Assembly: GCA_030431475.1 (NCBI GenBank)
Contig: JAUIJD010000003.1
Span: 62,001 to 126,000 of the forward strand
DNA length: 64,000 bases
Origin: Verrucomicrobiia bacterium
GTDB lineage: Bacteria; Verrucomicrobiota; Verrucomicrobiia; Verrucomicrobiales; Akkermansiaceae
Direction of reading: 5' to 3'
A program made the translations under genes and the position numbers. Below, one piece after another: positions 23,390 through 40,202 of the stretch; the stretch's first letter is position 1; each line of letters begins with the position of its first letter. Below the pieces are notes generated by a model that was not told the DNA's origin, ran no database searches, and worked only from the letters and a program-made list of their open reading frames with translations.

Positions 23390-24445
23390 ATGAGCTTCGT
23401 GCGATGGATGTGGCTGCTGGTTTCGGGCGTCGGCCCGCTCGTCGCGGGCGAGGACTCGGTCCCCGGTCGCATCGCGATGCACGTGGTCAACGACAGCGCG
23501 CCCTACCCGCAGTGCCATGCCTCGACCCTTGCCGAGGTGGCGCCGGGTCACCTGGTGGCGGCTTGGTTCGGCGGGACGCACGAGCGGCATCCGGATGTGT
23601 GCATCTGGCTGGCGCACTTCCGGGAGGGCCGGTGGAGGAACGCGGTGAGGGTCGCCGATGGCGTGCAGGCCGACGGCAGTCGGATGCCGACGTGGAATCC
23701 GGTTCTGTTCCAGCCCGACGGGGGCGTGCTGCATCTGTTCTACAAGGTGGGTCCGAATCCGCGGCAGTGGTGGGGCGAGGTGAAGACCTCCGCCGACGGC
23801 GGCGAGACGTGGAGCGAGGCCCGGCGCCTGCCGGAAGGGCTCCTCGGCCCGATCAAGAACAAGCCGGTGGTGCTGGATGACGGAAGGTGGCTGGCACCGT
23901 CGAGCCGTGAGGGAGACGGGGATGGCTGGCGGGTGCACTTCGAGGTTTCCGACGATGGAGGGCGAACCTGGCGGAGGTCGGAGTCGCCGGGCAGGGGCGC
24001 GGGATTCGACGCGATCCAGCCGAGCGTGCTTCGTCATCCCGGCGGGCGGCTCCAGGCGCTGTGCCGCAGCAAGCAGGGCGTGGTGGCAATGACCTGGTCG
24101 GAGGATGGCGGGGAGAGCTGGAGTCCGCTGGCGGCGACCACCCTGCCGAACCCAAATTCGGGGACCGATGCGCTGACGCTGGCCGACGGGCGTCATCTCG
24201 TCGTTTTCAATCCCACCGCGCACCGGCCGGACCACTCGGGCAAGGGCGATCGCCACCCCCTGGCCGTCGCCGTCTCCAACGACGGCCTGGCGTGGCAGAG
24301 GGTGGCGACGCTCGAGCACGAACCGCGTCCGGCGGGCTACGCCTACCCGGCGGTGATCCAATCCCGCGATGGCCGGGTGCACGTCTCCTACACCTGGGAC
24401 CGCCGGCGAATCCGCCACGTCATCCTCGATCCCACCGCCTGGTAG
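23390..24445 (+). CDS. Secreted sialidase-like (BNR/Asp-box) protein
   Basis: 351 residues with a signal peptide (MSFVRWMWLLVSGVGPLVAG). Four Asp-box repeats are visible: SADGGETWSEA, SDDGGRTWRRS, SEDGGESWSPL and a shorter SNDGLAWQRV. These mark six-bladed sialidase propellers. Similar proteins act as exo-sialidases or as rhamnogalacturonan-related hydrolases, so the substrate is uncertain. The start is fixed by GGGGAAGG. Divergent from the GH105-like gene, with a 116-base shared upstream region that has no clear promoter. Confidence 0.8.
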   Translation: MSFVRWMWLLVSGVGPLVAGEDSVPGRIAMHVVNDSAPYPQCHASTLAEVAPGHLVAAWFGGTHERHPDVCIWLAHFREGRWRNAVRVADGVQADGSRMPTWNPVLFQPDGGVLHLFYKVGPNPRQWWGEVKTSADGGETWSEARRLPEGLLGPIKNKPVVLDDGRWLAPSSREGDGDGWRVHFEVSDDGGRTWRRSESPGRGAGFDAIQPSVLRHPGGRLQALCRSKQGVVAMTWSEDGGESWSPLAATTLPNPNSGTDALTLADGRHLVVFNPTAHRPDHSGKGDRHPLAVAVSNDGLAWQRVATLEHEPRPAGYAYPAVIQSRDGRVHVSYTWDRRRIRHVILDPTAW

Positions 24446-24881
24446 CGACCGTCCTTCGTCGCCGCGCGATCGCCCCCGGATCCATGAATGAGGCACGGCT
24501 CGGGGGGGGCTGCCGCTGGCGCCCGAGGAGGGCCCGACCTGATCTCGGCAGGGCCCGGAACATCCTGAGCGGGAAGGGCGGCGGAGCTTCTCGCCGCGCG
24601 AGGCTTCGGAGTGGGGGAGAGGGGGCGGATTTCCCCGAAAACAGCTGAAAATCAGGGGATTTTGACGAATTTGAAAATCTTCAAGATAGGGCTTGCCAGG
24701 CGGGCTTTCGTGGATAGTCTCGCCGCCCCCAACAGCGTGCCCTGCCATCGCCTTGCGAGGCCGGTCACTACGGAAATCTCCAAAACTATCGGGTGCAGCA
24801 CCGGACAATTGGCTCCTGCGAGGGAATCTCGCCGGTGCTCGGTGCGCTCCTCAAGCAACTACCGAAACCCCGCAGGAATCT
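24446..24881 (+). promoter_or_regulatory. Leader and promoter region of the ribosomal operon
   Basis: 436 bases without a supported gene. A run from 24655 to 24690 is A/T-rich. The best promoter candidate is TTGCCA (24693-24698) and TAGTCT (24715-24720) with a 16-base spacer, which would give a leader of about 155 bases before rpsL. A second, weaker TTGACG lies at 24662-24667. No L4- or S7-type leader structure was recognised by eye. The first 200 bases are G+C-rich and show nothing. Confidence 0.4.
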
Positions 24882-25256
24882 ATGCCGACCATCAACCAGC
24901 TTGTCCGCAAGGGACGTCACGTGCCGGGCGAGAAATCGAAATCGCCGGCCATGGCGAATTGCCCGCAGCGTCGCGGTGTCTGCCTTCAGGTGATGACCCG
25001 CACGCCGAAGAAGCCGAACTCGGCGCTCCGCAAGGTCGCCAAGGTGCGCCTGACCAACGGTCACGAGGTGATCGCCTACATCGGAGGTGAGGGCCACAAC
25101 CTTCAGGAACACTCGATCGTGCTCGTGCGCGGTGGCCGGGTGAAGGACCTGCCGGGTGTGCGTTACCACATCGTCCGCGGTGCCCTCGATACCCTCGGCG
25201 TCGAGAAGCGTCGTCAGGGCCGCTCCAAGTACGGCGCCAAGCGTCCGAAGGGCTAA
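24882..25256 (+). CDS. rpsL: Ribosomal protein S12
   Basis: A 124-residue S12 starting [12 protein letters not shown], with the decoding-centre motifs [11 protein letters not shown] and [13 protein letters not shown]. The Lys residues whose change gives streptomycin resistance are wild type. First gene of the str-S10-spc cluster. AGGA lies only four bases before the ATG, one of the few SD-like sites in the operon. Full length for the family. Confidence 0.97.
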
Positions 25257-25288
25257 GTCATTTCTGAAACGTCCAACCTGATTTCATC

Positions 25289-25762
25289 ATGTCCCGCCGC
25301 AAGCGAGTCTTCCACAAGCCCGACCGTCGTGATTCGCGTTACGACAGCTCCCTCGTCGGTCACCTCATTTCGAAGGTGATGCGCGATGGCAAGCGTTCCC
25401 TCGCGGAGCGCATCGTCTACGCCGCCATCGACAAGGCCAACGAAGGGGTCGACACCGTCGATCCGCTCGAGGTCGTCACCCGTGCCATCGAGAACGCCAA
25501 GCCGCGCGTCGAGGTCAAGAGCCGCCGCGTCGGTGGTGCGACCTACCAGGTGCCGCTCGAGGTCGCCTCCGACCGCTCCGAGTCGCTGGCTCTGCGCTGG
25601 ATCGTCGGCTTCGCCCGCGGCCGCAAGGGCACCCCGATGCACGTCGCCCTCGCCAACGAGATCAAGGACGCCGCCAACAACCAGGGCAGCTCCGTCCGCA
25701 AGCGCGACGACGTCCACAAGATGGCCCAGGCCAACCGCGCCTTCGCCCACTTCCGCTGGTAA
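25289..25762 (+). CDS. rpsG: Ribosomal protein S7
   Basis: 157 residues, [15 protein letters not shown], with the family stretches [16 protein letters not shown] and [12 protein letters not shown]7 nucleates assembly of the 30S head and contacts E-site tRNA. It follows rpsL by 32 bases with no Shine-Dalgarno before ATG. The C-terminus ([15 protein letters not shown]) is full length. In E. coli S7 represses its own operon; no such leader is visible here. Confidence 0.97.
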
Positions 25763-25798
25763 TCCCTTTCCCTCCGATTCTCGAACCGTCCGCTTCCG

Positions 25799-27940
25799 AT
25801 GAGCGCCTCCGTCAATCATTCCGATCGCCCGTTTCCGCTTGAGCGGACTCGGAACATCGGGATTGCGGCGCACATCGATGCCGGCAAGACGACGCTCACC
25901 GAGCGGATCTTGTTCTACACGGGGATGATCCACAAGATCGGCGAGGTGCACGATGGTGCCGCCACGACCGACTGGATGGAGCAGGAGCGCGAGCGGGGGA
26001 TCACCATCACCTCCGCCGCCGTCACCGCCGAGTGGTGGCAGCGCGAGGAAAACGAGGTCTACAAGGCCTTCGAGGAGGAACGGCAGCGGATCAACATCAT
26101 CGACACCCCCGGTCACGTCGACTTCACCGCCGAGGTGGAGCGCTCGCTGCGGGTGCTCGACGGCGCGATCGTCGTCTTCTGCGCGGTCGCCGGTGTCCAG
26201 CCGCAGACCGAAACGGTCTGGCGTCAGGCTTCCAAATACAAGGTCCCGCGCATCATCTTCGTCAACAAGATGGACCGCGTCGGTGCCGAGTTCGACCGCG
26301 TGGTCGCCGAGGTGAAGGAGAAGCTGGGCGCGAATGCCGTCCGGGTTCTCATTCCGATCGGTTCCGAGGAGAATCTCCGGGGCCAGATCGATGTGGTGAA
26401 CCAGAAGGCCGTCATCTACGTCGACGACGAGACCTTCGGATCGACCTACGAGGTCAGGGAACTCGACGGCGAGCTCAAGGAGACCGCCGAGTTCGCCTAC
26501 CAGGAGCTGCTCGAAGCCGTTGCCGGCGTCGACGACGAGCTGGCCGAGAAGTTCCTGATGGAGGAGCCGATCGACAAGGCCGATCTCAAGGCCGCGATCC
26601 GGCGCGCCACCATCGCCAACAAGATCGTTCCCGTCACCGGCGGCTCGGCGTTCAAGAACAAGGGGGTCCAGTATCTCCTCGACGCCGTCATCGACTACCT
26701 TCCGAGCCCGCTCGACGTCCAGTCGGCGGTCGGGATGAACCCGGACGATACCGAGGAGGAGATTGTGGTCGCCACCGGTGACGACGGCAAGTTCTGCTCC
26801 CTCGCGTTCAAGCTCTGGGCCGACAAGTTCGTCGGGAAGCTGGTCTTTTTCCGCGTTTACTCCGGTGTCATTCGAAAGGGTGACACCGTTTTCAATCCCC
26901 GCACCCGCAAGAGCGAGCGCGTCGGCCGCCTGATCCGCATCCAGTCGGACCAGCACACCGACATCGACGCCTGCTACGCCGGGGACATCGCCGCCATGGT
27001 CGGCGTCAAGAACGTCCAGACCGGCGACACGCTCGCGGCGCCGGGCTACGAGGTCGTTCTCGAACCGCCGTCGTTCCCGGAGCCGGTCATCTCGATGGCC
27101 GTCGAGCCGAAGACGAAGGCCGACCAGGAGAAACTCGCCAACGCGCTCGTCCGCCTCGCCGAGGAGGATCCGACCTTCACGGTGAAGACCGACGAGGAGA
27201 CCGGCCAGACCATCATCTCCGGGATGGGGGAGCTGCACCTCGAGATCATCGTCGACCGCCTGCGTCGCGAGTTCAAGGTGGAGGCCAACACCGGCGCGCC
27301 GCAGATCGCCTACCGCGAAACCATCACGGGCGATGCCGATGGTGAAGGGAAGCTGGTCAAGCAGTCCGGCGGCCGGGGCCAGTATGGTCACGTGCGGCTC
27401 CGCATGCGCCCGAACGAGAAGGGCAAGGGACTGACCATCGACAACCAGATCGTGGGAGGCGAGATCCCCAAGGACTTCCACAATGCCTGCATGAAGGGCA
27501 TCCAGGACGCGATGACCAACGGCATCGTCGCCGGCTACCCGGTCGTCGATGTCCACGTCGACCTGCTCGGAGGGTCCTTCCACGAGGTCGACTCCAACGA
27601 GAACGCCTTCACCATGGCGGCCATTTTCGCCATGCGCGATGCCTTCAAGAAGGCCTCGCCCATCCTCCTCGAGCCCATCATGGGGGTCGAGATCTCGACC
27701 CCCGACGACTATCAGGGCGACGTGATGGGCGACCTTTCCCGCCGCCGCGGCCAGATCGGCGAGATGGAATCCAAGGGCAAGCTGGCGGTCATCCACGCCA
27801 ACGTGCCTCTCAAGGAGATGTTCGGCTACTCGACCGCCGTCCGAACCCTCTCGTCCGGCCGTGCCTCCTACTCGATGACCCCGTCGCACTTCGAGGAAGT
27901 GCCGGCGAACATCGTCGAACAGATCATCAACGAACGCTGA
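25799..27940 (+). CDS. fusA: Elongation factor G
   Basis: 713 residues, the translocation GTPase. G1 is [10 protein letters not shown]2 [11 protein letters not shown]3 DTPGHVDF and G4 NKMDR. Domain IV loop residues and the C-terminal domain V are present, ending in VEQIINER. Length is typical. Upstream is CT-rich leader without SD. Unlike E. coli, tuf does not follow; the next gene, 37 bases on, is rpsJ. Confidence 0.97.
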
Positions 27941-27977
27941 ACCCAGCTTTACCCAACCGACCACCCCTTCCGACGCC

Positions 27978-28286
27978 ATGGAAAACCAGAAGATCCGCAT
28001 CCGCCTCCGGGCTTTCGACCACCGTGCGATCGACCGCTCCGCCCTGGAGATCGTCGAAACCGCCAAGCGCACCGGCGCCAAGGTGGCCGGCCCGATCCCG
28101 CTTCCGACCCGTATCGAGAAGTTCAGCGTCAACCGCTCGGTGCACGTGAACAAGAAGTCGGCCGAACAGTTCGAGATCCGCACCCACAAGCGCGTGCTCG
28201 ACATCGTCGATCCGACCGCCCGCACGGTGGACGAGCTGAAGAAGCTCAACCTGCCCGCCGGTGTCGACATCGCGATCCGCATCTGA
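27978..28286 (+). CDS. rpsJ: Ribosomal protein S10
   Basis: 102 residues with [17 protein letters not shown] at the start and the loop that also binds NusB in antitermination. First gene of the S10 part of the cluster. It directly follows fusA, with tuf missing from the gap. No SD before the ATG (CCGACGCC precedes it). Confidence 0.97.
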
Positions 28287-28342
28287 CGGCTGCACGACGT
28301 TCCGAACCTCCCAATCCCTTAATTTCCAATCTCTCAAGCACC

Positions 28343-28987
28343 ATGTCCCTCGGACTTCTAGGCAAGAAACTCGGCATGACCCGTCTCTTTGATGAAGAGA
28401 CGCAGTCGATGATCCCCGTCACCGTCGTCGAAGTCGGCGGCAACACCATCGTTCAGCGCAAGACCGTCGACAGCGACGGCTACAACGCCGTCCAGGTGGG
28501 TTACGACGACAAGAAGGAGCAACGCACGACCAAGCCGGAGCTCGGCCACTTCAAGAAGCACGGCTCCGACGCCAAGTACGTCGTTCAGGAATTCCGCTTC
28601 GGCAATGACGAGGAAGTTCCGGAGGAGCATCCCGGTGCCGAGCTGTTCAGCGCCGGCCAGTGGGTCGATGTGATCGGCACCACCAAGGGCCGCGGCTTCC
28701 AGGGTGCCGTCCGCCGCTACGGTTTCGGCGGCCTCAAGCAGACCCACGGTTCCATGATGCACCGCCGGACCGGCGCCATCGGCGCGGGCTCCACCCCGGG
28801 CCGCGTCTGGAAGAACCAGCAGATGCCCGGTCACATGGGCACCGACAGCCGCACCGTGCAGAACCTCAAGGTCGTTGCCGTCCGTCCGGAAGACAACGTG
28901 ATCCTCATCTCGGGTGCCGTTCCCGGTCACAAGAACGGCTACCTGACGATCCGCCCCGCCAAGAAGAAGCCGGCTCCGACCGCCTGA
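28343..28987 (+). CDS. rplC: Ribosomal protein L3
   Basis: 214 residues, MSLGLLGKKLGMTRLF, with the conserved core GRGFQGAVRRYGFGGLKQTHG and the peptidyl-transferase-approaching loop GRVWKNQQMPGHMG. Early 50S assembly protein. Ends in a short Lys/Pro tail. The leader before ATG is C/T/A-rich without SD. Length is typical. Confidence 0.97.
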   Translation: MSLGLLGKKLGMTRLFDEETQSMIPVTVVEVGGNTIVQRKTVDSDGYNAVQVGYDDKKEQRTTKPELGHFKKHGSDAKYVVQEFRFGNDEEVPEEHPGAELFSAGQWVDVIGTTKGRGFQGAVRRYGFGGLKQTHGSMMHRRTGAIGAGSTPGRVWKNQQMPGHMGTDSRTVQNLKVVAVRPEDNVILISGAVPGHKNGYLTIRPAKKKPAPTA

Positions 28988-29019
28988 GCCGGCACCGAAC
29001 CTGAAAACGATTTCCGACC

Positions 29020-29628
29020 ATGTCCGCGAAAACATTCACCGCCGAGGATGCCAAGGCCGCCAACATCGTGCTGGCCGAGGAAGGCAAGGGCTCGCAGGCC
29101 GTCCATGATCTGGTGACCGCCTACCGCGCCAACCGCCGCACCGGCTCCGCCAACACCAAGACCCGCGGCGAGATCCGGGGCAACAACAAGAAGATGTACC
29201 GCCAGAAGGGCACCGGCAATGCCCGTCACGGCACCAGCAAGGCCCCGATCTTCGTCGGTGGCGGTGTGGCCCACGGGCCGCGCCCCCGCGACTACTCGAA
29301 GAAGGTGACCAAGAGCACCCGCCGTCTCGCGCTTCGCCGCGTGCTGGCCGACGTGATCGAAAGCGGTGCCCTCAAGGTGCTGCCCTCCTTCCAGATCAGC
29401 GAGCCGAGAACCAAGGCCTTCATCGCCGCGGTGACCTCGGAAACCGAGCCCAAGAAGGTCCTCATCGTCGCCAAGAGCTTCGACGAGAACACCTACCTGG
29501 CCGCCCGCAACGTCAAGTGGGCCGAGCTTCGGACCGCCGACAGCGTCAATATCGAGGAACTCCTCCACGCCAACACCGTGTTGCTGGTCGAGGACGCCCT
29601 TGAAACCCTTGCCACCCGCACGGCTTGA
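29020..29628 (+). CDS. rplD: Ribosomal protein L4
   Basis: 202 residues. The extended loop that lines the exit tunnel is present ([25 protein letters not shown], macrolide-site region, quoted here by its first residues only as [10 protein letters not shown]). The globular part follows with [15 protein letters not shown]. In E. coli L4 represses the S10 operon through its leader; no such leader is seen upstream of rpsJ here. ATG preceded by TTCCGACC, no SD. Confidence 0.96.
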
Positions 29629-29650
29629 ACCCCGAACCGAACCCGGAACC

Positions 29651-29935
29651 ATGAAGGATCTCTACCAAGTCATCAAGAACGTCCGCGTCTCGGAGAAGGC
29701 GACCATGCTCAACGAGCTCAACAACGAGGTCGTCCTCGAGGTCGACCGCCGTGCCAACAAGCTCGAGATCAAGCGCGCCGTCGAGGCCCTGCTTGGCAAG
29801 AAGGTCGAGGGTGTCCGCACTCTCAACCAGGCCGGCAAGACCAAGCGCAAGCGCCGTGCCGACCAAGGCCGCACCGCCCACTGGAAGAAGGCCATCGTCC
29901 GCCTCAAGGAGGGCGAGAACCTCGATCTCGTCTAA
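29651..29935 (+). CDS. rplW: Ribosomal protein L23
   Basis: 94 residues, MKDLYQVIKNVRVSEKA, with the family stretch VVLEVDRRANKLEIKRAVE and a basic loop KTKRKRRADQGR. L23 sits at the exit of the peptide tunnel and binds trigger factor and SRP. The ATG at 29651 is the standard start; an in-frame upstream extension would overlap rplD. No SD. Confidence 0.95.
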   Translation: MKDLYQVIKNVRVSEKATMLNELNNEVVLEVDRRANKLEIKRAVEALLGKKVEGVRTLNQAGKTKRKRRADQGRTAHWKKAIVRLKEGENLDLV

Positions 29936-29977
29936 GACCCGAACCCCTTTTCCTGAATCCCAACCCTTTCGCGAGCC

Positions 29978-30820
29978 ATGCCTCTCAAAGAGTTCAAACC
30001 GCTCACGCCGCCCCAGCGCTACAAGGCGCTGCCGACCTTCGAAGAAATCACGAAGAAGAAGCCGGAGAAGTCGCTGCTTTCGCCCCTCAAGAAGAGTGGC
30101 GGACGCAACAACACCGGCCGCATCACGACCCGTCACATCGGTGGCGGTCACAAGCGTCACTACCGCCTCGTTGATTTCAAGCGCCGCAAACACGACGTGC
30201 CGGCGGAGGTCATCGGCATCGAGTACGATCCCAACCGCACCTGCCGCATCGCGCTGATCCAGTACGAGGACGGCCAGAAGAGCTACATCCTCGCCCCGGT
30301 CGGCCTCAAGGTCGGCGCCAAGGTGGTGGCGGGTGAGTCGGCCGCCCCGAAGCCGGGCAACGCGCTGCCGCTCAGCAAGGTGCCGCTCGGCACCGCCGTT
30401 CACAACATCGAGCTCATCCCGGGCAACGGCGGCAAGGTCGCCCGCGCCGCCGGTCAGCAGGCCATCCTCTCCAACCGTGACGGCGAGTGGGCCCTGGTCA
30501 AGATGCCTTCCGGTGAGATCCGCCGCTTCAACGCCCGGTGCTTCTGCACCATCGGCCAGGTCGGCAACCGCGACCACATGAACGAGATCTCGGGCAAGGC
30601 CGGCCGCACGCGCTGGCAGGGCAAGCGCCCGACCGTGCGCGGCATGTGCATGAACCCCGTCGACCACCCGAACGGTGGTGGTGAGGGCAAGTCGAAGTCC
30701 GGTGGTGGCCGACAGCACCTCTTGTCCCCGTGGGGTCACGCCAAGGGCGAGAAGACCCGCAAGCACAAGAAGCCGACCAACACCTTCATCGTCGAGCGCC
30801 GCAAGAACAAGAAGCGCTAA
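29978..30820 (+). CDS. rplB: Ribosomal protein L2
   Basis: 280 residues. RNA-binding stretch [18 protein letters not shown] near the N-terminus and the C-terminal [10 protein letters not shown]-type region (here [17 protein letters not shown]) with the conserved His needed for subunit association. Full length. The leader ends in CGCGAGCC before ATG, no SD. Confidence 0.97.
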
Positions 30821-30841
30821 CCTCCAACGATTCCCAGCATC

Positions 30842-31111
30842 ATGTCACGTTCCCTGAAAAAAGGTCCGTTCGTCGATCAGAAGCTCCTCGTCAAGATCGA
30901 CAAGGCGATCGAGACGAACGACAAGAAACCGATCAAGACCTGGAGCCGCAAGTCGATGATCACGCCCGACTTCGTCGGCCTCAACTTCGCGGTCCACAAC
31001 GGCAAGACCTTCGTTCCGGTGTATGTCACCGAGAACATGGTCGGCCACAAACTCGGGGAATTCGCCCCGACCCGCATCTTCCGCGCCCACGGCGGCATCG
31101 GTAAGAAGTAA
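30842..31111 (+). CDS. rpsS: Ribosomal protein S19
   Basis: 89 residues, [16 protein letters not shown], with the conserved [14 protein letters not shown] and the C-terminal [13 protein letters not shown]. Binds S13 in the 30S head. Start ATG after CAGCATC with no SD. The expected next gene is rplV, but an exported-protein gene intervenes. Confidence 0.97.
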
Positions 31112-31131
31112 CCGTCCGAACGCTCCGCCTC

Positions 31132-31854
31132 ATGTCCCTCGCCCGTGTCATCCACCGACCGACCGCCGCCCTCCTCGGGCTGTGGATCGCCGTCGGGGTG
31201 TGCCCGGGCCAGACGACCCCGGCGGAGATGTCCGAACTCCAGCGCGAGGTGGCCGACCTGCGCGTCCGCAACCGGGTGCTGGAGCAGGGGATCGCCGAAG
31301 CCAATCGTGCCGAAAAGCAGGCGTCCGAGCAACTCGCCCAGGTCCGCGAGCGGCTTGAGGCGCTCGGCCGCGACCTGCTGGATGGCGGCGACGAGCGCCT
31401 GATCCAGGCCACCGCGGACATCCAGATCCTCAACGAGCGGATCGAATTGCTCGAAGGCAGCGCGATGCGGCTTTCGGGCATGGTGTCCGAGTTCCTGCGG
31501 ACCTCGGTCGCCTCCGACCCCGATTCGCGGCTTCGTGTCGAATCCGCCATGCGAGAGCTTGACTCGGTCCTCGGACTGAGGCAGAAGCCCGCCCCCACCG
31601 CTCAGACCTCGGTTTCGCCCCGCCGGGCCAAGGTCCTGAGCATCGATTCCGAGAGCGGTCTGCTGGTCCTCAACATTGGCGAGCAGCAGGACGTGCGGAT
31701 CGGATCGACCTACCGCCTCTACCGGGGCGACCAACCCTACGGCACCGCCATCATCGCCGACGTCCGTCGGCGAATCAGCGGTGCCTTCGTCGAGTCCAGG
31801 GAGTCCGATGCTCCCGTGCGCCTCGGCGATCTCGCCCTTCTCGAAACCGAATAA
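31132..31854 (+). CDS. Exported coiled-coil protein inserted between rpsS and rplV
   Basis: 240 residues, not a ribosomal protein. A signal peptide (hydrophobic core ALLGLWIAVGVC, about 13-24, cleavage near PGQ) is followed by a long heptad-patterned coiled coil (about 32-110, with ELQREVADLRVRNRVLEQ). A Pro/Ala linker leads to a C-terminal beta domain (about 162-240, VLSIDSESGLLVLNIGEQQ then VRIGSTYRLYRGDQP). That domain resembles small beta-barrels in flagellar FlgT-like or envelope proteins, but I assign no function. It is in the same orientation, 20 bases after rpsS and 36 before rplV, without SD like its neighbours, so it is co-transcribed with the ribosomal genes. Base composition does not differ visibly. 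Confidence 0.85.
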   Translation: MSLARVIHRPTAALLGLWIAVGVCPGQTTPAEMSELQREVADLRVRNRVLEQGIAEANRAEKQASEQLAQVRERLEALGRDLLDGGDERLIQATADIQILNERIELLEGSAMRLSGMVSEFLRTSVASDPDSRLRVESAMRELDSVLGLRQKPAPTAQTSVSPRRAKVLSIDSESGLLVLNIGEQQDVRIGSTYRLYRGDQPYGTAIIADVRRRISGAFVESRESDAPVRLGDLALLETE

Positions 31855-31890
31855 ATCTCCGTTTTCTCCAACCCCTCATCCCACCGTCCG

Positions 31891-32280
31891 ATGGAAGTCA
31901 AGAGCACCACCAAGTTCGTCCGCCTGTCGCCGAAGAAGGCGCGCGACGTCGCCCGCGAGATCCAGGGTCTGCCGGTTTCCGCCGCGCTGGATATTCTCGC
32001 CTTCACGCCCAAGAAGGCCGCCTACCTGATCAACAAGACCCTCAAGACGGCGATTGCCGACGCGGAGAACAACTTCGCGCTCGATGCGGACAGCCTCTAC
32101 GTGAAGGAAGCCGTGATCGGTGCCGGTCCGACCATCCGTCGCTACAAGCCTCGCGCCCGCGGTTCCGCCGGCCCGATCCTCAAGCGCACCAGCCACATTT
32201 TCGTCACCCTCGCGGAAGCGCCCGACGAGGAGGATGCCAAGCCGAAGAAGCGCCACCTTTCCAAGAAGGCCGAAGCCTGA
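31891..32280 (+). CDS. rplV: Ribosomal protein L22
   Basis: 129 residues starting MEVKSTTKFVRLSPKKARDV. The long beta-hairpin that reaches into the exit tunnel is seen in GPTIRRYKPRARGSAGPI. It has an acidic then basic C-terminal tail (DEEDAKPKKRHLSKKAEA) not found in E. coli L22. No SD; leader CATCCCACCGTCCG. Confidence 0.96.
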   Translation: MEVKSTTKFVRLSPKKARDVAREIQGLPVSAALDILAFTPKKAAYLINKTLKTAIADAENNFALDADSLYVKEAVIGAGPTIRRYKPRARGSAGPILKRTSHIFVTLAEAPDEEDAKPKKRHLSKKAEA

Positions 32281-32305
32281 TCTCCCACTCCAAACGCATT
32301 TCATC

Positions 32306-33022
32306 ATGGGCCAGAAAGTCAACCCCATCGGATTCCGTCTCGCCGTCAACAAGGACTGGCGCTCGAAGTGGTATGCCTCCGGCAAGGACTACGCCGACAA
32401 CCTCCACGAAGACCTCCGGATCCGGAAGTACCTGAGCGGACGTCTCCAGTTCGCCGCTCTCTCGAAGGTGATCATCGAGCGCGCCTGGGGCAGCGTTCGC
32501 GTCACGCTCCACACCTCCCGCCCCGGCCTCATCATCGGCCGCAAGGGCTCGGAGATCGAGCGCATGACCAAGGATCTCGCCAAGATCTGCGACAACGCCA
32601 ACGTCAAGATCGACATCGTCGAGATCCGCAAGCCGGAGCTCGACGCCCAACTCGTCGCCGAGCAGGTGGCGGTCCAGCTCGAGCGCCGGATCTCCTTCCG
32701 CCGCGCCATGAAGCGGGCCGTCCAGACCACCATGGACTTCGGGGCCGACGGCATCCGGATCCGTTGCGGCGGCCGCCTCGGCGGTGCCGACATCGCCCGT
32801 GCCGAATGGTATCGCGAGGGCAAGGTGCCGCTTCAGACGCTCCGTGTGCCGCTCGACTACGGCTTCGCCGAGGCCCGCACCGTTTACGGCGTGATCGGCG
32901 TGAAGTGCTGGGTCAACAAGAAGGAGGACGCCGACAAGGGTCCGTCGCCGCAGGGCGCCGAGCGCCGTCCGCGCCGTCCGCGCAACAACAACCAGCCCGC
33001 TCCGGCCGCTCCCTCGGCCTGA
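32306..33022 (+). CDS. rpsC: Ribosomal protein S3
   Basis: 238 residues, MGQKVNPIGFRLAVNKDW. The KH domain is marked by GLIIGRKGSEIERM, and the C-terminal half by RGRLGGADIARAEWY-type sequence (here CGGRLGGADIARAEWYREG). It lines the mRNA entry channel. A Pro/Arg/Asn tail of about 35 residues (PRRPRNNNQPAPAAPSA) is extra compared with E. coli. ATG after TTTCATC, no SD. Confidence 0.97.
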   Translation: MGQKVNPIGFRLAVNKDWRSKWYASGKDYADNLHEDLRIRKYLSGRLQFAALSKVIIERAWGSVRVTLHTSRPGLIIGRKGSEIERMTKDLAKICDNANVKIDIVEIRKPELDAQLVAEQVAVQLERRISFRRAMKRAVQTTMDFGADGIRIRCGGRLGGADIARAEWYREGKVPLQTLRVPLDYGFAEARTVYGVIGVKCWVNKKEDADKGPSPQGAERRPRRPRNNNQPAPAAPSA

Positions 33023-33073
33023 ACCGCGAATTCTCCCGCAACCCGCCATTTTTAACCCCAGCAGGACCAAGCC

Positions 33074-33493
33074 ATGCCTTTGATGCCCAAACGCACGAAG
33101 TTCCGGAAGTCGCACCGCGGCTCCCGCGCCGGTAACGCCCAGCGCGGCACCACCGTCGCTTTCGGTGACTTCGGACTCCAATGCCTCGGCCGCGGATGGA
33201 TGACCAACCGCCAGATCGAAGCCTGCCGTATCGCGATCAACCGCTACCTCAAGCGTAAAGGGAAAGTCTGGATCCGGATCTTCCCCCACAAGTCGATCAC
33301 CCGCCGTCCCCCGGAAACCCGGATGGGTAAGGGTAAGGGTGCCGTCGACGCCTGGGTGGCCGTCGTGCGCCCCGGCAACATGCTCTTCGAAGTCTCCGGC
33401 GTGCCGGAATCCCAGGCCCGCGAAGCCATGCGCCTCGCCTCCTACAAGCTCGGCGTGCCGACCCGCTTCGTCGTCCGCAACCAGCATTCCTGA
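33074..33493 (+). CDS. rplP: Ribosomal protein L16
   Basis: 139 residues, [16 protein letters not shown]. The second Met (residue 4) is the position where many L16 start, so translation may begin there too. Conserved [22 protein letters not shown]. It helps form the A-site of the 50S subunit. AGGA lies seven bases before the ATG, one of three SD-like sites in this operon. Confidence 0.96.
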
Positions 33494-33516
33494 AACCTTC
33501 CAACCGACCTCCGATC

Positions 33517-33720
33517 ATGGCTTCGACCAAGACCAACGAATTTGCCGAACTCACGGCCAAGGAACTTGAGGCCCGCATCCGCGACCTCAAGGAAGAGGCA
33601 TTCAACCTCCGCCTCCAGCAGGCGACCGGCCAGCTCGAGAATTCGGCCCGCATCCGCCAGGTCCGCCGCGACACCGCTCGCGCCATGACCTACCTCAACG
33701 CCCGCCGCCGCGAGGACTGA
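33517..33720 (+). CDS. rpmC: Ribosomal protein L29
   Basis: 67 residues of two helices, with [19 protein letters not shown] and the family end [18 protein letters not shown]. It lies at the tunnel exit next to L23. Typical length. Leader CCTCCGATC before ATG, no SD. Confidence 0.94.
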
Positions 33721-33754
33721 ACCCCCGTTTCATCACGATTCCCATTCTCCAGCC

Positions 33755-34024
33755 ATGAGCGAGACCCAGCAGGACTCCCGTCCGAACCTCCGCAAGACCC
33801 GCGTCGGCGTGGTCGTGTCCGACAAGATGAACAAGACCATCGTCGTCGAACACATCGCCCGCGTGCCTCACCCGGACTTCAAGAAGATCGTCAAGAAGTC
33901 GAAGAAGTACTACGTCCACGACGAGAAGGGCGAGGCGACGATCGGCGACAAGGTGCGGATCGTCGAAACCAAGCCGATCTCCAAGTCCAAGTGCTGGGCG
34001 CTCGAGGAGATCATCAGCCACTAA
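33755..34024 (+). CDS. rpsQ: Ribosomal protein S17
   Basis: 89 residues. OB-fold with NLRKTRVGVVVSDKMNKTIV and KKYYVHDEKGEATIGDKVRI. Binds helices of 16S rRNA early in assembly. Ends at 34024; an unusual 113-base spacer with octamer repeats follows before rplN. ATG after TCCAGCC, no SD. Confidence 0.96.
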   Translation: MSETQQDSRPNLRKTRVGVVVSDKMNKTIVVEHIARVPHPDFKKIVKKSKKYYVHDEKGEATIGDKVRIVETKPISKSKCWALEEIISH

Positions 34025-34041
34025 CGAATCCAAGCCGAGAC

Positions 34042-34121
34042 GCTGAAACACTGGAACGCTGAGGTCCATCAGCACCGCAGTCACTCCACCTTTCAGCTTT
34101 TCAGCAGTTCAGAATTTCAGC
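34042..34121. repeat. Octamer repeat element with inverted copies, between rpsQ and rplN
   Basis: Three tandem octamers (GCTGAAAC, ACTGGAAC, GCTGAGGT; 34042-34065) face four octamers in the opposite orientation (CTTTCAGC, TTTTCAGC, AGTTCAGA, ATTTCAGC; 34090-34121) across a 24-base spacer. The transcript could fold into a long imperfect hairpin. It has the same build as the decamer element at 55458-55594. Confidence 0.7.
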
Positions 34122-34137
34122 CTTTACCACCACCGTC

Positions 34138-34503
34138 ATGCTCCAGATGGAATCCCTTGTTTCGGTCGCCGACAACACCGGCGCCCGTACCGCCAAGATG
34201 ATCGGCGTTCTCGGCAAGCGCTCGCGCAGCGCCGATGTCGGCGACATCATCACCGCCCACGTTCGCGACGCGATCCCGACCGCTTCGATCAAGAAGGGCA
34301 CGGTGGTCAAGGCCGTGGTCGTCCGCACCGCTGCTCCGATCCGCCGCTCCGACGGTTCGATCCTGCGCTTCGACAACAACGCCATCGTCGTCATCGACAA
34401 GGACAACAATCCCCGCGGCACCCGGATCTTCGGTCCGGTCGCCCGTGAGCTTCGCGAGAAGCAGTTCATGAAGATCGTCTCCCTCGCTCCCGAGGTCCTC
34501 TAA
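34138..34503 (+). CDS. rplN: Ribosomal protein L14
   Basis: 121 residues, [17 protein letters not shown], with [18 protein letters not shown] and [16 protein letters not shown]. It binds L19 and forms an intersubunit bridge. Typical L14 starts MIQxxS, which this matches. No SD (CACCACCGTC precedes the ATG). It stands alone after the repeat-bearing spacer. Confidence 0.97.
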
Positions 34504-34527
34504 ACCAAATTTTTCCAACCGTTTCCC

Positions 34528-34752
34528 ATGAAGACGCACGTCAAGAAAGGCGACGAAGTCGAAGTGATCGCCGGCAACCACAAGGGCAAGCGCGGCACCG
34601 TGCTGCTGGTCAATGCCTCCAAGGGGCAGGTGGTCGTCGAAGGCGCCCGCAAGATCAAGAAGGCCGTCCGCCGCTCCGAGACCCAACCCGACGGTGGCAT
34701 CATCGAGGAAGACGGTCCGATCCACATCTCCAACGTCAAGAAACTGGGCTGA
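34528..34752 (+). CDS. rplX: Ribosomal protein L24, short form
   Basis: 74 residues, shorter than the 104 of E. coli. The KOW motif is clear ([21 protein letters not shown]). It keeps [15 protein letters not shown] and [16 protein letters not shown] but lacks the C-terminal extension and zinc-like region of longer L24. One of the two initiators of 50S assembly. No SD; leader CCGTTTCCC. Confidence 0.94.
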
Positions 34753-34812
34753 CTTCCCCGGAAGTCCGCCCGCGCTTAAGCGCAACCTACCAAGCGCTGA
34801 CCCGCTGAAACC

Positions 34813-35391
34813 ATGAGCACCCCGCTACTGAAACAACACTACCTGGAAAAGGTGGTCCCGGCTCTCAAGGAGAAGCTCGGCTACACCAATCCGCACCAGG
34901 TTCCGCAGATCGAGAAGGTCGTCATGACGACCTGTCTGGGCAACGAACCCGACCGCAAGGTCGCCGTGGACGACGCGGTGATCGAGATCGCCAAGATCAC
35001 CGGTCAGAAGCCCTCGATCACCTACTCGAAGAAGGCCGTCGCGAACTTCAAGCTGCGCGCCGGTGAACCCCTCGGTGCCCGCGTGACCCTGCGCGGCGAC
35101 CGCATGTGGGAGTTCCTCTACCGCTTCATCAACATCACCGCGCCGAACATCCGCGACTTCCGCGGCATCAGCCCGAGGGGCTTCGACGGACGCGGCAACT
35201 ACGCCGTCGGCATCCCCGACCAGTCGATCTTCCCGGAGATCGAGCTCGACAAGATCAAGCGGCAGATCGGTTTCGACCTGATCGTCGTGACCACGGCCAA
35301 GACCGATGACGAGGGCCGCGCCCTGCTCAAGGAGGTCGGCATGCCGTTCCGCGAAGTCTCCAAACCGACCGAAGAAGGCGCTGCTGCCTGA
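34813..35391 (+). CDS. rplE: Ribosomal protein L5
   Basis: 192 residues with NPHQVPQIEKVVMTTC near the start and the P-loop-like region FRGISPRGFDGRGNYAVG. Binds 5S rRNA and P-site tRNA. The C-terminal tail (SKPTEEGAAA) is a little longer than usual. ATG after CTGAAACC, no SD. rpsN, expected next, is absent. Confidence 0.96.
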   Translation: MSTPLLKQHYLEKVVPALKEKLGYTNPHQVPQIEKVVMTTCLGNEPDRKVAVDDAVIEIAKITGQKPSITYSKKAVANFKLRAGEPLGARVTLRGDRMWEFLYRFINITAPNIRDFRGISPRGFDGRGNYAVGIPDQSIFPEIELDKIKRQIGFDLIVVTTAKTDDEGRALLKEVGMPFREVSKPTEEGAAA

Positions 35392-35422
35392 GGCCCCGAG
35401 TTCAATTCAAGCTTACGAGAAA

Positions 35423-35821
35423 ATGGCAGTTCTTACCGATCCCATCTCCGACTTCCTGACCCGCTTCAAAAACTGCTGCCGGGCCGGCAACGAGGAGTTC
35501 ACCGCGCCGTATTCGCGCATCAAGGCCGACATCGCCAAGATCCTCCAGGACGAGGGCTACATCTGGGGCTACGAGGTCGTGACCACCGAGAAGTTTCCGG
35601 AAATCAAGGTCAAGGCCCGCTACGTCGACGGCCGTGCCGTGCTCACCGACCTGAAACGGGTCTCGAAGCCCGGGCGCCGCGTCTACGCCGGTGCCGACGA
35701 CATCCCCCGCGTCCTCAACGGACTCGGCATCGCGATCGTCTCGACCTCGAAGGGCGTGATGTCCGGTGCCAACGCCAAGCGCAAGCGCCTTGGCGGAGAA
35801 ATCCTCGCCAACGTTTGGTAA
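35423..35821 (+). CDS. rpsH: Ribosomal protein S8
   Basis: 132 residues, MAVLTDPISDFLTRFKN, ending in the family signature ISTSKGVM-type sequence (here IVSTSKGVMSGANAKRK) and GGEILANVW. In E. coli S8 represses the spc operon. It directly follows rplE by 31 bases; the ATG is preceded by ACGAGAAA, no clear SD. Confidence 0.97.
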   Translation: MAVLTDPISDFLTRFKNCCRAGNEEFTAPYSRIKADIAKILQDEGYIWGYEVVTTEKFPEIKVKARYVDGRAVLTDLKRVSKPGRRVYAGADDIPRVLNGLGIAIVSTSKGVMSGANAKRKRLGGEILANVW

Positions 35822-35849
35822 ACCCCGACCCGAGAAAGGAACAGAAACC

Positions 35850-36389
35850 ATGTCACGAGTTGGATCCAAACCAATCGCCTTGCCCGACAAGGTGAAGCTC
35901 AACGTCAGCAACGGCTCCGTCGCCATCGAGGGACCCAAGGGGAAGTTGGACTTCTCCCTTCCCCGCGGCGTCACCGTCGCCGAGGAGGACGGCCAGGTGG
36001 TCGTCTCCCGCGCGTCCGAACTCCGCGAGCACCGCGCCCTCCACGGCACCGTCCGCAGCATCGTCAGCAACATGATCACCGGGGTGACCGAAGGCTTCGT
36101 CAAGGAGCTTGAGATCCAGGGGGTCGGCATGCGCGCGGCGGTCAAGGGCAAGGACCTCGACCTGTCGCTCGGCAAGTCGCACCCGATCCTGCACCCGATC
36201 CCGTCGGACCTGACCGTCAGCGTCGCCGAAAACACCAAGATCAAGGTGGAAGGCATCGACAAGCAGAAGGTCGGCCAGTTCGCCGCCGAGGTGCGCAGCT
36301 ACTACCCGCCGGAGCCGTACAAGGGCAAGGGCGTCCGCTACGCCGGCGAGCGCGTCCGCCGCAAGGAAGGCAAGAGCGTCGCGAAATAA
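35850..36389 (+). CDS. rplF: Ribosomal protein L6
   Basis: 179 residues, [17 protein letters not shown], two related alpha/beta domains, and the C-terminal signature [23 protein letters not shown]. Located near the factor-binding site. AAGGA lies about nine bases before the ATG, one of three SD-like sites in this operon. Typical length. Confidence 0.97.
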
Positions 36390-36409
36390 CCCGCAACCAT
36401 CCACGAATC

Positions 36410-36766
36410 ATGAGCCAATTGAATCGCAAGGAAGTGCGCCGCCGGATCCACAAGCGGATCCGTCGCAAGGTCGCGGGCACCGCCGATCGCCCCCGTCTCG
36501 CGGTCCACTATTCCAATCAGCACATCTACGCCCAGGTGATCGACGACGAGTCCGGCAAGACGCTTGCCCAGGCCTCGACGCTCGACAAATCGATCGAGAA
36601 ATCGGCATCGAATGTTGCCTGTGCGTCCACTGTCGGTCAGCTTCTCGCCGAGCGCGCGAAGGCGGCCGATGTCGACGCCGTGGTCTTCGACCGGGGTGGT
36701 CATCTCTATCACGGCAAAATCAAAGCCCTGGCCGACGCCGCTCGCGAAGCCGGCCTCAAGTTCTAA
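36410..36766 (+). CDS. rplR: Ribosomal protein L18
   Basis: 118 residues, basic N-terminus [20 protein letters not shown] that binds 5S rRNA and a core with [19 protein letters not shown]. The C-terminus contains [23 protein letters not shown], the family ending. No SD; leader CCACGAATC. Confidence 0.96.
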
Positions 36767-36791
36767 TCCCGACACGCGCATTTCTATCGTC

Positions 36792-37424
36792 ATGGTGACC
36801 ACCAACGAAACACCCCCCGCCTCTTCTCCCAAGTCCGGCACGGACGCCAACTCCGGGGCGGACGCCGCCAAGTCGGGACCGCCTCCACGCGGGCGGGGCC
36901 GCGGCCGCGGACCCCGTCGCGAGGAACGCCAGCCGGCGATGGTCGACGGCAAGGAAGTGACCGAGAAGGTCGTCTTCATCAACCGTTGCGCCAAGGTCGT
37001 GAAGGGCGGCCGTCGCTTCAGCTTCTCGGCCCTCGTGGTCGTCGGAGACAAGGAAGGCAAGGTCGGACTCGGATTCGGCAAGGCCAACGAAGTGGCGGAC
37101 TCGATCCGCAAGGCCAGCGAGGCCGGGCGCAAGTCGCTCGTCCCGATGAATCTCGCCGACGGCACGATTCCCCACGAAAGCTACGCCGAGTATGGCGGCG
37201 GCAAGGTGCTCCTGAAGCCCGCCTCCCCCGGTACCGGGATCATCGCCGGCGGTGGCGTGCGTGCGGTCTGCGAGGCCGTGGGCATCCGCGACGTGCTGGC
37301 CAAGTCCCTCGGTTCGGCCAACCACGCAAACGTGGTCAAGGCCACCCTCAAGGCTCTTTCGCAGCTCCGCACCCGCGATCAAGTCTTCGCGGCGCGCGGC
37401 AAGGGCAAGAAGGAGTCGATCTAA
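36792..37424 (+). CDS. rpsE: Ribosomal protein S5 with N-terminal extension
   Basis: 210 residues, about 45 longer than E. coli S5. The first 50 or so are low-complexity: Ser/Pro/Ala/Gly, then an [14 protein letters not shown] stretch. The core has [34 protein letters not shown] and [15 protein letters not shown]5 affects decoding accuracy. ATG after CTATCGTC, no SD. rpmD (L30), expected next, is absent; rplO follows after heptamer repeats. Confidence 0.95.
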
Positions 37425-37458
37425 TCGAACCTCGAACTTCGAATATCGAACGTCGAAT
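37424..37458 (+). repeat. Five tandem heptamers between rpsE and rplO
   Basis: ATCGAAC, CTCGAAC, TTCGAAT, ATCGAAC, GTCGAAT (consensus NTCGAAY), starting on the last base of the rpsE stop codon and ending one base before the rplO ATG. The whole spacer is made of this repeat, so it is also the rplO leader. No SD is possible within it. Confidence 0.75.
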
Positions 37459-37459
37459 C

Positions 37460-37915
37460 ATGAAATTGCACACTCTCAAGCCCAACAAGGGCTCCAAGCA
37501 TCGGGTCAAGCGCCTGGGTGCGGGTGAAAGCTCCGGCCGGGGCAAGACCTCCGGCAAGGGCCACAAGGGTCAGAAGGCCCGTTCCGGCGGCTCCGTCCGT
37601 CCGGGTTTCGAAGGCGGCCAGATGCCCCTTCACCGCCGCCTTCCGAAGAAGGGCTTCAACAACGCCGACTTCAAGACCAAGGTCTCGGTGGTGAACCTCG
37701 CCAAGCTCGAGCGATTCTTCGAGGATGGTGACACGGTCAACGAGGAGAGCCTCCGCGCCAAGGGACTCGTCAGTCGCAAGTGCGACATCGTCAAGGTCCT
37801 CGGCCAGGGTCAGCTGAGCAAGAAGCTGACCATCTCGGTCGACGCCGCGAGTGCCTCGGCCAAGGAGAAAATCGAGAAGGCGGGCGGCACGCTCGAGCTT
37901 CCCTCCGTCGGTTGA
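37460..37915 (+). CDS. rplO: Ribosomal protein L15
   Basis: 151 residues, with the Gly-rich N-terminus GRGKTSGKGHKGQKARSGG and the family stretch RRLPKKGFNNADFKTKV. A late 50S assembly protein. It follows rpsE with rpmD missing. The ATG directly follows heptamer repeats with no SD. Confidence 0.96.
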   Translation: MKLHTLKPNKGSKHRVKRLGAGESSGRGKTSGKGHKGQKARSGGSVRPGFEGGQMPLHRRLPKKGFNNADFKTKVSVVNLAKLERFFEDGDTVNEESLRAKGLVSRKCDIVKVLGQGQLSKKLTISVDAASASAKEKIEKAGGTLELPSVG

Positions 37916-37948
37916 TTGCGGCTCCGGCCGACATCATGATTCCGAATC

Positions 37949-37978
37949 GTTGAGGAAGCGCTTGCCCGCTTCCTCAAC
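37949..37978 (+). terminator. Perfect 12-bp hairpin between rplO and secY
   Basis: GTTGAGGAAGCG (37949-37960), loop CTTGCC, and CGCTTCCTCAAC (37967-37978). It is followed by GCGTTTAAAAG rather than a long T run, so it may be an attenuator or an RNA processing or stability element that lowers secY relative to the ribosomal genes, rather than a full terminator. Confidence 0.55.
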
Positions 37979-38020
37979 GCGTTTAAAAGAGCGCCCGTTT
38001 TTCCGACCGTTTCCACACCC

Positions 38021-39532
38021 ATGATCTCCGCATTCGCGAACACCTGGAAGGTTCCCGAGCTCCGCGACCGCATTCTCTTCACCCTCGCCATGATCGTGAT
38101 CGTGCGCCTCGGCGTGCACGTCACCCTGCCCGGCGTCGATGCCACGGTCATCGACGAGTGGATGCAGGACGCGAAAGAGAAGAGCGACGCGACCACCGCC
38201 GGCGGTCTGCAGGCCATCCTCGGAATCTTCTCCGGGGGAGCGCTGCAGCAGGCCGGTGTCTTTGCGCTCGGGATCATGCCCTACATCTCGGCATCGATCA
38301 TGATGCAGCTGATGTCGGCGGTCGTTCCGAAGCTCTCGCGGCTCCGTCGCGAGGACGGGGGTCAGCAGAAAATCACGCAGTACACGCGTTACCTGACGAT
38401 CGCCATCGCCCTGGTTCAGGGGTTCTTCGTGGCCAAGGCGCTCATGGCTCCCGAGAGCAACCCGCTGATGGGAGGCATCGGTGACACCATCAACCGTCTG
38501 GGCCGCGAGCTCGTGCCCGAGCCGACCGTGGCCTGGCAGGCGCTGACCGTCCTCACCATCGTTGCCGGCACCCTGCTGCTGATGTGGATCGGCGACCAGA
38601 TGACCGAGCGTGGCATCGGCAACGGCACCTCCATCATCATCACCGTCAACATCATCGCCGCGCTCCCGGGCGCGATGTTCCAGACCTGGCAGTATTTCGT
38701 GGCCCGTGAGGGGGCGACCACCTTCGAGGTGATGATGCTGGTCGTGATGATCGCCATGCTGCTGCTGGTGATTGCGGGGACCATCGCCATCACCCAGGCC
38801 CAGCGGCGGATTGCGATCCAGTACGCCAAGCGCGTCGTCGGCCGCAAGCAGTTCGGCGGTCAGACCCAGTATCTGCCCCTCAAGGTGAACTATGCCGGCG
38901 TGATGCCGATCATCTTCGCCACGGCCGTGCTGTCGCTGCCGACCATCATCCTGACCCAGATCTTTCCCGACGCCAGCTGGTCCCGCAGCCTGCAGGACGC
39001 GCTGCTCGGCGGCACCTGGTACTACGTGCTCGGCGCGATCTTCATCTTCTTCTTCTCCTACTTCTGGGTGGCGACCATGTTCCAGCCGTCGCAGATCTCC
39101 GAGGACCTGAAGCGCAACGGCGGCTACATCCCGGGCGTGCGCCCCGGCAAGCCGACCGCCGACTTCCTCGATTTCACCATGACGCGACTGACCTTCGCGG
39201 GTGCGATCTTCCTGACCCTCATCTTCGTCCTGCCGGTGGCGATCGGCAAGATCGTCGGCCTGCCTCCCGGATCGATGGTGCTGCAGTTCTTCGGCGGCAC
39301 CAGCCTGCTGATTCTCGTGGGGGTGATTCTCGACGTGATGCGCCAGGTGGAGACCCACCTCCTCCAGCGCCACTACGACGGCTTCCTCCGCAAGGGCAAG
39401 CTGAAGGGGCGCTACGACCGCCTCTCGCAATCGACCAGCGGCTCGACCGCCGGCACGGCGATTGTCTACCTGTGGGCCTTCATCGGCCTGCTGCTGGTGA
39501 TCGGTGCGGTGGCCTGGATCGCGAAGGGCTGA
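38021..39532 (+). CDS. secY: Protein translocase subunit SecY
   Basis: 503 residues with ten membrane helices, starting MISAFANTWKVPELRDRILF. Conserved plug and loop motifs GIMPYISASIMMQL and, near the C-terminus, RHYDGFLRKGKLKGRY, which contacts SecA and the ribosome. Somewhat longer than E. coli SecY (443), with extra sequence in the early periplasmic loops (VIDEWMQDAKEKSDATTAGG). It is separated from rplO by a hairpin. Overlaps nothing; adk begins 7 bases after its stop. Confidence 0.96.
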   Translation: MISAFANTWKVPELRDRILFTLAMIVIVRLGVHVTLPGVDATVIDEWMQDAKEKSDATTAGGLQAILGIFSGGALQQAGVFALGIMPYISASIMMQLMSAVVPKLSRLRREDGGQQKITQYTRYLTIAIALVQGFFVAKALMAPESNPLMGGIGDTINRLGRELVPEPTVAWQALTVLTIVAGTLLLMWIGDQMTERGIGNGTSIIITVNIIAALPGAMFQTWQYFVAREGATTFEVMMLVVMIAMLLLVIAGTIAITQAQRRIAIQYAKRVVGRKQFGGQTQYLPLKVNYAGVMPIIFATAVLSLPTIILTQIFPDASWSRSLQDALLGGTWYYVLGAIFIFFFSYFWVATMFQPSQISEDLKRNGGYIPGVRPGKPTADFLDFTMTRLTFAGAIFLTLIFVLPVAIGKIVGLPPGSMVLQFFGGTSLLILVGVILDVMRQVETHLLQRHYDGFLRKGKLKGRYDRLSQSTSGSTAGTAIVYLWAFIGLLLVIGAVAWIAKG

Positions 39533-39539
39533 CCCGGTC

Positions 39540-40202
39540 ATGGCGCTGCAGGTCGTCCTCCTCGGGCCTCCCGCTTCCGGGAAAGGGACCCAGGGTCGAC
39601 GACTCGCGGAGGCGCTGTCGGTGGACTACCTCGGGACCGGGGCCCTGCTGCGCGAGCTCCTGGAGAACGGAGGGGCTCAGGCCGACGAGATCCGTCCCAT
39701 CCTGGCCCGCGGTGGGTATCTCCCGGACGGGTTGATGTGCGGCATCATGGCCGAATGGCTCGCAGGCCACCGGCGGGGCTGGGTGCTCGACGGTTTTCCC
39801 CGGAGCGTCGATCAGGCGGGTTTCCTGGACTCGTGGCTCGGTGACCGGGGCGAGGCCCTGGACGCCGCGGTTCTGCTGGACGTGCCGAAGCCGGAGCTGG
39901 TGGCGCGCATCGACCAGCGTGTCGAATGTCCGTCGTGCCGATGGTCCGGGCGGGCGGACGACCGGCGTGACGGAGCCCGCTGTCCGGACTGTGGAGGACG
40001 GGCCGGGCGCCGCGCCGACGACCGCCTTGAGAATTTTCTTTCCCGATACGGGGAATACCAGCGACACACGGTCCCGACGATCGACGTGTACTCGGCGGCG
40101 GGAGTGCTGCTCCGCTGCGAGGCGAGCGATCGGATGGATCGGGTCGCCGAGCGGCTCGAGCGAGAAGTTCGAAACCTGACCAGTCATGGCCAAGCGACAT
40201 AA
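39540..40202 (+). CDS. adk: Adenylate kinase, zinc-type LID
   Basis: 220 residues catalysing ATP + AMP to 2 ADP. P-loop GPPASGKGTQ near residue 9. DGFPRSVDQA is the family signature. The LID carries Cys130, Cys133, Cys148 and Cys151 (CPSC and CPDC), the structural-zinc type found in Gram-positives and some others. The middle (ARGGYLPDGLM) and the R-rich active site (RADDRLENF) are normal. It ends 17 bases inside map, so the two are coupled. Confidence 0.92.
   Translation: MALQVVLLGPPASGKGTQGRRLAEALSVDYLGTGALLRELLENGGAQADEIRPILARGGYLPDGLMCGIMAEWLAGHRRGWVLDGFPRSVDQAGFLDSWLGDRGEALDAAVLLDVPKPELVARIDQRVECPSCRWSGRADDRRDGARCPDCGGRAGRRADDRLENFLSRYGEYQRHTVPTIDVYSAAGVLLRCEASDRMDRVAERLEREVRNLTSHGQAT

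Follow-up and report, generated by a model that had tools for sequence, protein, structure and literature searches.

A conserved gene for a predicted exported protein in the S10 operon of Verrucomicrobiota

Introduction

Few bacterial gene orders are conserved as well as that of the S10 operon, where a gene for a non-ribosomal, predicted exported protein is unexpected. We observed such a gene between rpsS and rplV in a 64,000-nucleotide stretch of a Verrucomicrobiia genome, here called the window. Is it an accident of one genome or a lasting part of the operon, and what might an exported protein be doing there? A literature search, mostly outside subscription journals, returned no description of a gene at the rpsS-rplV position. 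We find a real, conserved S10-operon gene of Verrucomicrobiota that has apparently gone undescribed so far.

Results

An intact gene between rpsS and rplV

The following features of the window are relevant to the inserted gene:

30842 to 31111, + strand: rpsS (ribosomal protein S19), the upstream neighbor, from its ORF and translation
31132 to 31854, + strand: the inserted gene, encoding a predicted exported protein of 240 amino acids with a coiled coil and a C-terminal beta-barrel, from conserved position and HMM
31132 to 31212, + strand: signal-peptide-like N-terminus, approximately residues 1-27, from sequence, with the end point set by eye
31222 to 31572, + strand: long helical, probably coiled-coil region, residues 31-147, from the AlphaFold model
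31621 to 31851, + strand: C-terminal beta-barrel domain, residues 164-240, common to the whole family, from the model, a fold match, HMM and profile match
31891 to 32280, + strand: rplV (ribosomal protein L22), the downstream neighbor, from its ORF and translation
32306 to 33022, + strand: rpsC (ribosomal protein S3), next after rplV, from its ORF

According to the original prediction, rpsS and rplV are separated by a same-strand gene, at 20 and 36 bases from its neighbors, whose leader shows the style without Shine-Dalgarno motifs that is common to the operon. An intact ORF of 240 codons with an ATG start (31132-31854, +) is indeed found there, 20 bases after rpsS and 36 bases before rplV, and Shine-Dalgarno-like motifs were absent at the operon starts checked, including that of the inserted gene, with one weak exception. 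A consensus scan of positions 27900-34000 returned no promoter-like site and no terminator-like site on the + strand, and no Rfam family reached the gathering threshold over 24000-40000. As judged from the sequence, it is plausible that the gene shares its transcription with the ribosomal genes. On the opposite strand, an ORF of 285 codons (30877-31734, -) overlaps both rpsS and the inserted gene, probably as the shadow of a coding sequence with high G+C.

The gene recurs across the order, the class and the phylum

A protein search across the order found matches in 136 of 142 genomes. The best 30 matches, all from the window's family, have the gene order rplB-rpsS-gene-rplV-rpsC; Haloferula rosea and H. 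luteola are close named relatives. When 40 more regions of the order were fetched, four were copies elsewhere in the genome, and the others had the same gene order, in full or as far as the contig reached. Wherever a locus of the order had both rpsS and rplV, an ORF occupied the space between them (65/65). At the level of the class, a profile built from 21 members matched in 215 of 286 genomes. The inserted gene lay between rpsS and rplV in all 40 matched loci from other families, which were picked for having a profile match, independently of gene position. In some relatives (L030, L032 and others), the matches to rplV and rpsC are unusually far apart (up to ~430 bases), reflecting either an extended rplV tail or a further insertion.

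For the phylum, genomes were selected by rpsS and rplV alone, and the gap between these two genes was computed in the resulting 145 genomes. The two genes were close together in 90, and in 46 of these the gap was at least 360 bases; in the remaining close pairs, 24 to ~340 bases separate the rpsS and rplV matches, with no gene recognised inside. All of the newly fetched long gaps (22/22) encode a homolog recognised by an HMM of the C-terminal domain, whose training sequences came from the window's order only. Overall, this domain HMM recognises every one of the 138 proteins of at least 90 amino acids found between rpsS and rplV (weakest E-value 9.4e-8; best shuffled decoy 0.24), where 138 is a count of loci rather than species, since some loci were fetched twice. 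In other classes, the inserted ORF ranges from 129 to 321 amino acids. Confinement of the gene to this one genome would have spoken against the original prediction, and this is clearly not the case: searching the same position in other Verrucomicrobiota reveals a lineage-wide gene, and it was probably present early in the phylum.

The lasting linkage is to rplV

Outside the class, many families have rpsS and rplV on different contigs or far apart. In 30 of the 37 such genomes checked, the ORF immediately before rplV is a homolog, at a distance of 1-140 bases, with E-values of 2.9e-4 to 3.1e-18 against the HMM trained on the order only. Because the homolog adjoins rplV in so many split operons, it is the linkage to rplV that is durable. 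The prediction of a gene between rpsS and rplV is therefore borne out as to the position, which recurs, but the lasting association is with rplV and not with the rpsS-rplV pair. Being directly upstream of rplV and having a C-terminal match to the domain HMM, the inserted gene belongs to what we term the rplV-linked exported barrel family. The breakpoint itself is of note, as the S10 operon of many Verrucomicrobiota outside the class breaks between rpsS and rplV, the insertion site (G382, G387, G379, G456 and others, L155-L205; families f64, f69, f70, f74, f75, f80, f82, f86, f88-90 and f92), and where contigs are long, its two halves are seen to be widely separated (e.g. G382).

The gene is also missing from several lineages; the two shortest gaps read, in L150 and L151, measure only 9 and 20 bases. 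Lineages without the inserted gene still have rplV and rpsC in place. That many lineages are without it indicates that the phylum can do without the gene. Two genomes of 0.9 Mb (G157 and G165) have no matching ORF between rpsS and rplV, while G222, of the same genus, retains the gene. G157 may be a Xiphinematobacter endosymbiont. Loss in these two small genomes, with retention in a relative, is more in keeping with a role in the envelope than with one in the ribosome. Both small genomes retain approximately 150-310 bases between the two ribosomal genes (L142 in G165, L143 in G157), possibly a decayed copy.

The conserved core is a predicted exported barrel

The N-terminus of the window protein is hydrophobic, and a hydrophobic 11-mer within approximately the first 50 residues occurs in 96% of the 138 homologs, versus 53% in the rest of the longer proteins. 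The part of the original prediction that put a gene for a predicted exported protein in the S10 operon thus extends to the whole lineage. Its description of the protein as signal peptide, long coiled coil and C-terminal beta domain agrees with the layout predicted for the window protein, but the coiled coil is missing from short versions of ~110-130 amino acids in families f13, f17, f39, f47 and f50 (L134-L140), which consist of a signal-like N-terminus and the barrel. The family core would then be a predicted exported barrel, with the coiled coil as the part that is not conserved.

The AlphaFold model, built with five close sequences, is of moderate quality (mean pLDDT 70, pTM 0.33) and has helices at residues 31-82, 87-128 and 130-147 and strands from residue 165 onward. 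With this moderate model, Foldseek matched the barrel to the FlgT structure 3w1e at rank 5 (E-value 1.0e-3), and VIA-align matched residues 158-240 to F1-ATPase N-domains (Z ~10). A profile of the barrel domain matched TsaP (3jc8) with an E-value of 2.7e-4, and the FlgT_C HMM weakly matched 7 of the 22 domain sequences, at best with an E-value of 1.5e-4. The six-stranded barrel of FlgT_C (PF16538) is matched at the level of fold only, by a moderate model; nothing in the window genome scores above the Pfam gathering cut-off for this family (P0001 unmatched), and for the barrel, no model of Pfam or NCBIfam scores above its cut-off. As far as the model can be relied upon, the barrel has the same fold as FlgT_C, and we do not file it as a member.

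FlgT, of the Vibrio flagellar H-ring, is one of the closest comparisons. Its C-terminal domain is a six-stranded barrel of the F1-ATPase N-domain type, like that of the inserted protein, and FlgT is periplasmic, as is predicted for the inserted protein. However, the N and M domains of FlgT are not seen in the inserted protein, whose gene sits in a ribosomal operon rather than with flagellar genes. The likeness to TsaP, a pilus secretin-associated protein, consists of the profile match to its C-terminal domain; unlike TsaP, the inserted protein lacks a LysM domain, and its gene is not beside pilus genes. The rod-shape protein MreC (PF04085) has a similar layout of N-terminal membrane or signal segment, coiled coil and C-terminal beta domain, and its model gives marginal matches in one or two family members. 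We reject an identity with MreC because the genome has a separate MreC: the model finds only another gene (G000:C7, E-value 1.5e-35), and the inserted gene does not reach the Pfam gathering score in a search of its own genome. Look-alikes of YscO, ZapB and SMC, from single-sequence searches of Pfam, NCBIfam and the PDB, were weak coiled-coil matches below cut-off that we ascribe to composition. The PVC signature protein CT421.2 (~53 to over 80 amino acids; PMC3444138) does not agree with the inserted protein in length.

The window genome also encodes two paralogs on contig C50 (L162), in adjacent genes on the - strand (520-1335 and 1372-2256; 271 and 294 amino acids). They share the layout, in which a coiled coil follows an N-terminal membrane segment, and also the C-terminal domain (E-values 1.4e-4 and 5e-9). 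Unlike the inserted gene, these paralogs have no linkage to ribosomal genes, and they score weaker on the domain HMM than nearly all of the rplV-linked members.

Selection, co-evolution and codon usage

The inserted gene is under purifying selection, with dN/dS values of 0.21, 0.24 and 0.39 against three relatives, compared with 0.09-0.17 for rplV and 0.01-0.06 for rpsS. Distances between barrel domains correlate with rpsS/rplV distances across 130 loci (Mantel Spearman 0.54; highest value in 500 permutations 0.14), and the correlation between rpsS and rplV distances is equal to this (0.54). The inserted gene thus evolves in step with rpsS and rplV, which fits vertical descent with the operon.

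Expression at ribosomal-protein levels, which the original prediction expected, lacks support: by codon usage, an indirect measure, the inserted gene resembles ordinary genes, both in the window genome and in five relatives. In the window, its codon adaptation is 0.59-0.60, while ribosomal genes have a median of ~0.72 and other genes lie at 0.49-0.58, a range that comes from differing background sets. In the five measurable relatives, the inserted gene was always below the ribosomal median and fell between the 21st and 86th percentile of other genes; these values were computed on the window and 20 kb stretches, and some ribosomal gene starts in the codon sets are approximate, giving low outliers.

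Discussion

What could such a protein be for? Our best reading, held tentatively and at somewhat less than an even chance, is that of a growth-coupled periplasmic scaffold or tether. The product would be exported by the Sec pathway into the periplasm, where its core would be a small six-stranded beta-barrel of the FlgT_C type; in the window lineage, the N-terminal coiled coil that precedes the barrel probably makes the protein oligomeric. With the gene directly upstream of rplV and presumably co-transcribed as part of the S10 transcription unit, its mRNA should track growth rate alongside the ribosomal proteins. The most likely role would be that of an envelope structural or assembly factor (a scaffold, ring or tether) required in proportion to growth, supplied much as secY is provided from the neighboring spc operon. 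Ordinary codon usage argues against a very abundant structural protein, and the sequence indicates no partner or pathway.

The gene could instead be a passenger, encoding an unrelated minor exported protein; having entered the operon long ago, it would have been retained because operon-internal rearrangements are costly. The ordinary codon usage agrees with this, as do the several lineages without the gene, down to the gaps of 9 and 20 bases. Yet loss is clearly possible, and most of the class nevertheless retains the gene under purifying selection; the gene also remains with rplV after the operon has split. We regard a passenger as unlikely, although not negligibly so.

A second alternative, rather improbable in our view, is that the protein, instead of being a general envelope factor, serves as a part of one particular periplasmic machine (a flagellum or pilus-secretin ring, or an efflux assembly), in the manner of FlgT and TsaP. 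The FlgT_C-like fold of the barrel and the profile match to TsaP speak for such a part. The C-terminal domain of FlgT has been structurally linked to the N-domain of the F1-ATPase beta subunit, and its topology recurs in periplasmic adaptor barrels (PMC4446572). However, no machine genes adjoin the inserted gene, the fold is very common, and both the wide spread of the family and its placement among ribosomal genes fit housekeeping better than an optional machine.

Very unlikely, in our estimate, is a translation- or export-coupled regulator like SecM/secA, in which export efficiency tunes rplV, rpsC and further genes: as in SecM-type export sensors, the product looks exported and the gene is directly upstream of a translation-related gene, a linkage to rplV that survives operon breakage with the gene then preceding the rplV unit, but known arrest proteins have a conserved C-terminal arrest sequence, whereas the inserted protein has a predicted folded C-terminal domain followed, beyond the last barrel strand, by a tail of variable length and sequence, and rplV and rpsC stay in place in lineages without the gene.

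Returning to a periplasmic scaffold or tether, the coupling of envelope growth to ribosome synthesis is a step that we infer. That the gene stays before rplV even in broken operons is a hint of a link between making ribosomes and building the envelope. In its furthest form, such a link would be ancient, phylum-level, and both physical and regulatory, joining a periplasmic envelope factor with L22, and the synthesis or export of that factor would keep ribosome production and envelope growth in step; we think this fairly doubtful.

The gene persists beside rplV across very different families, including genomes that we take to be those of Akkermansia muciniphila (G057) and Verrucomicrobium spinosum (G049). 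For V. spinosum, a saturated transposon library and targeted mutagenesis exist (PMC12283558), putting a test within reach. The conserved position of this gene thereby turns into a testable question whether a component of the envelope may be tied to ribosome synthesis through shared transcription in Verrucomicrobiota.
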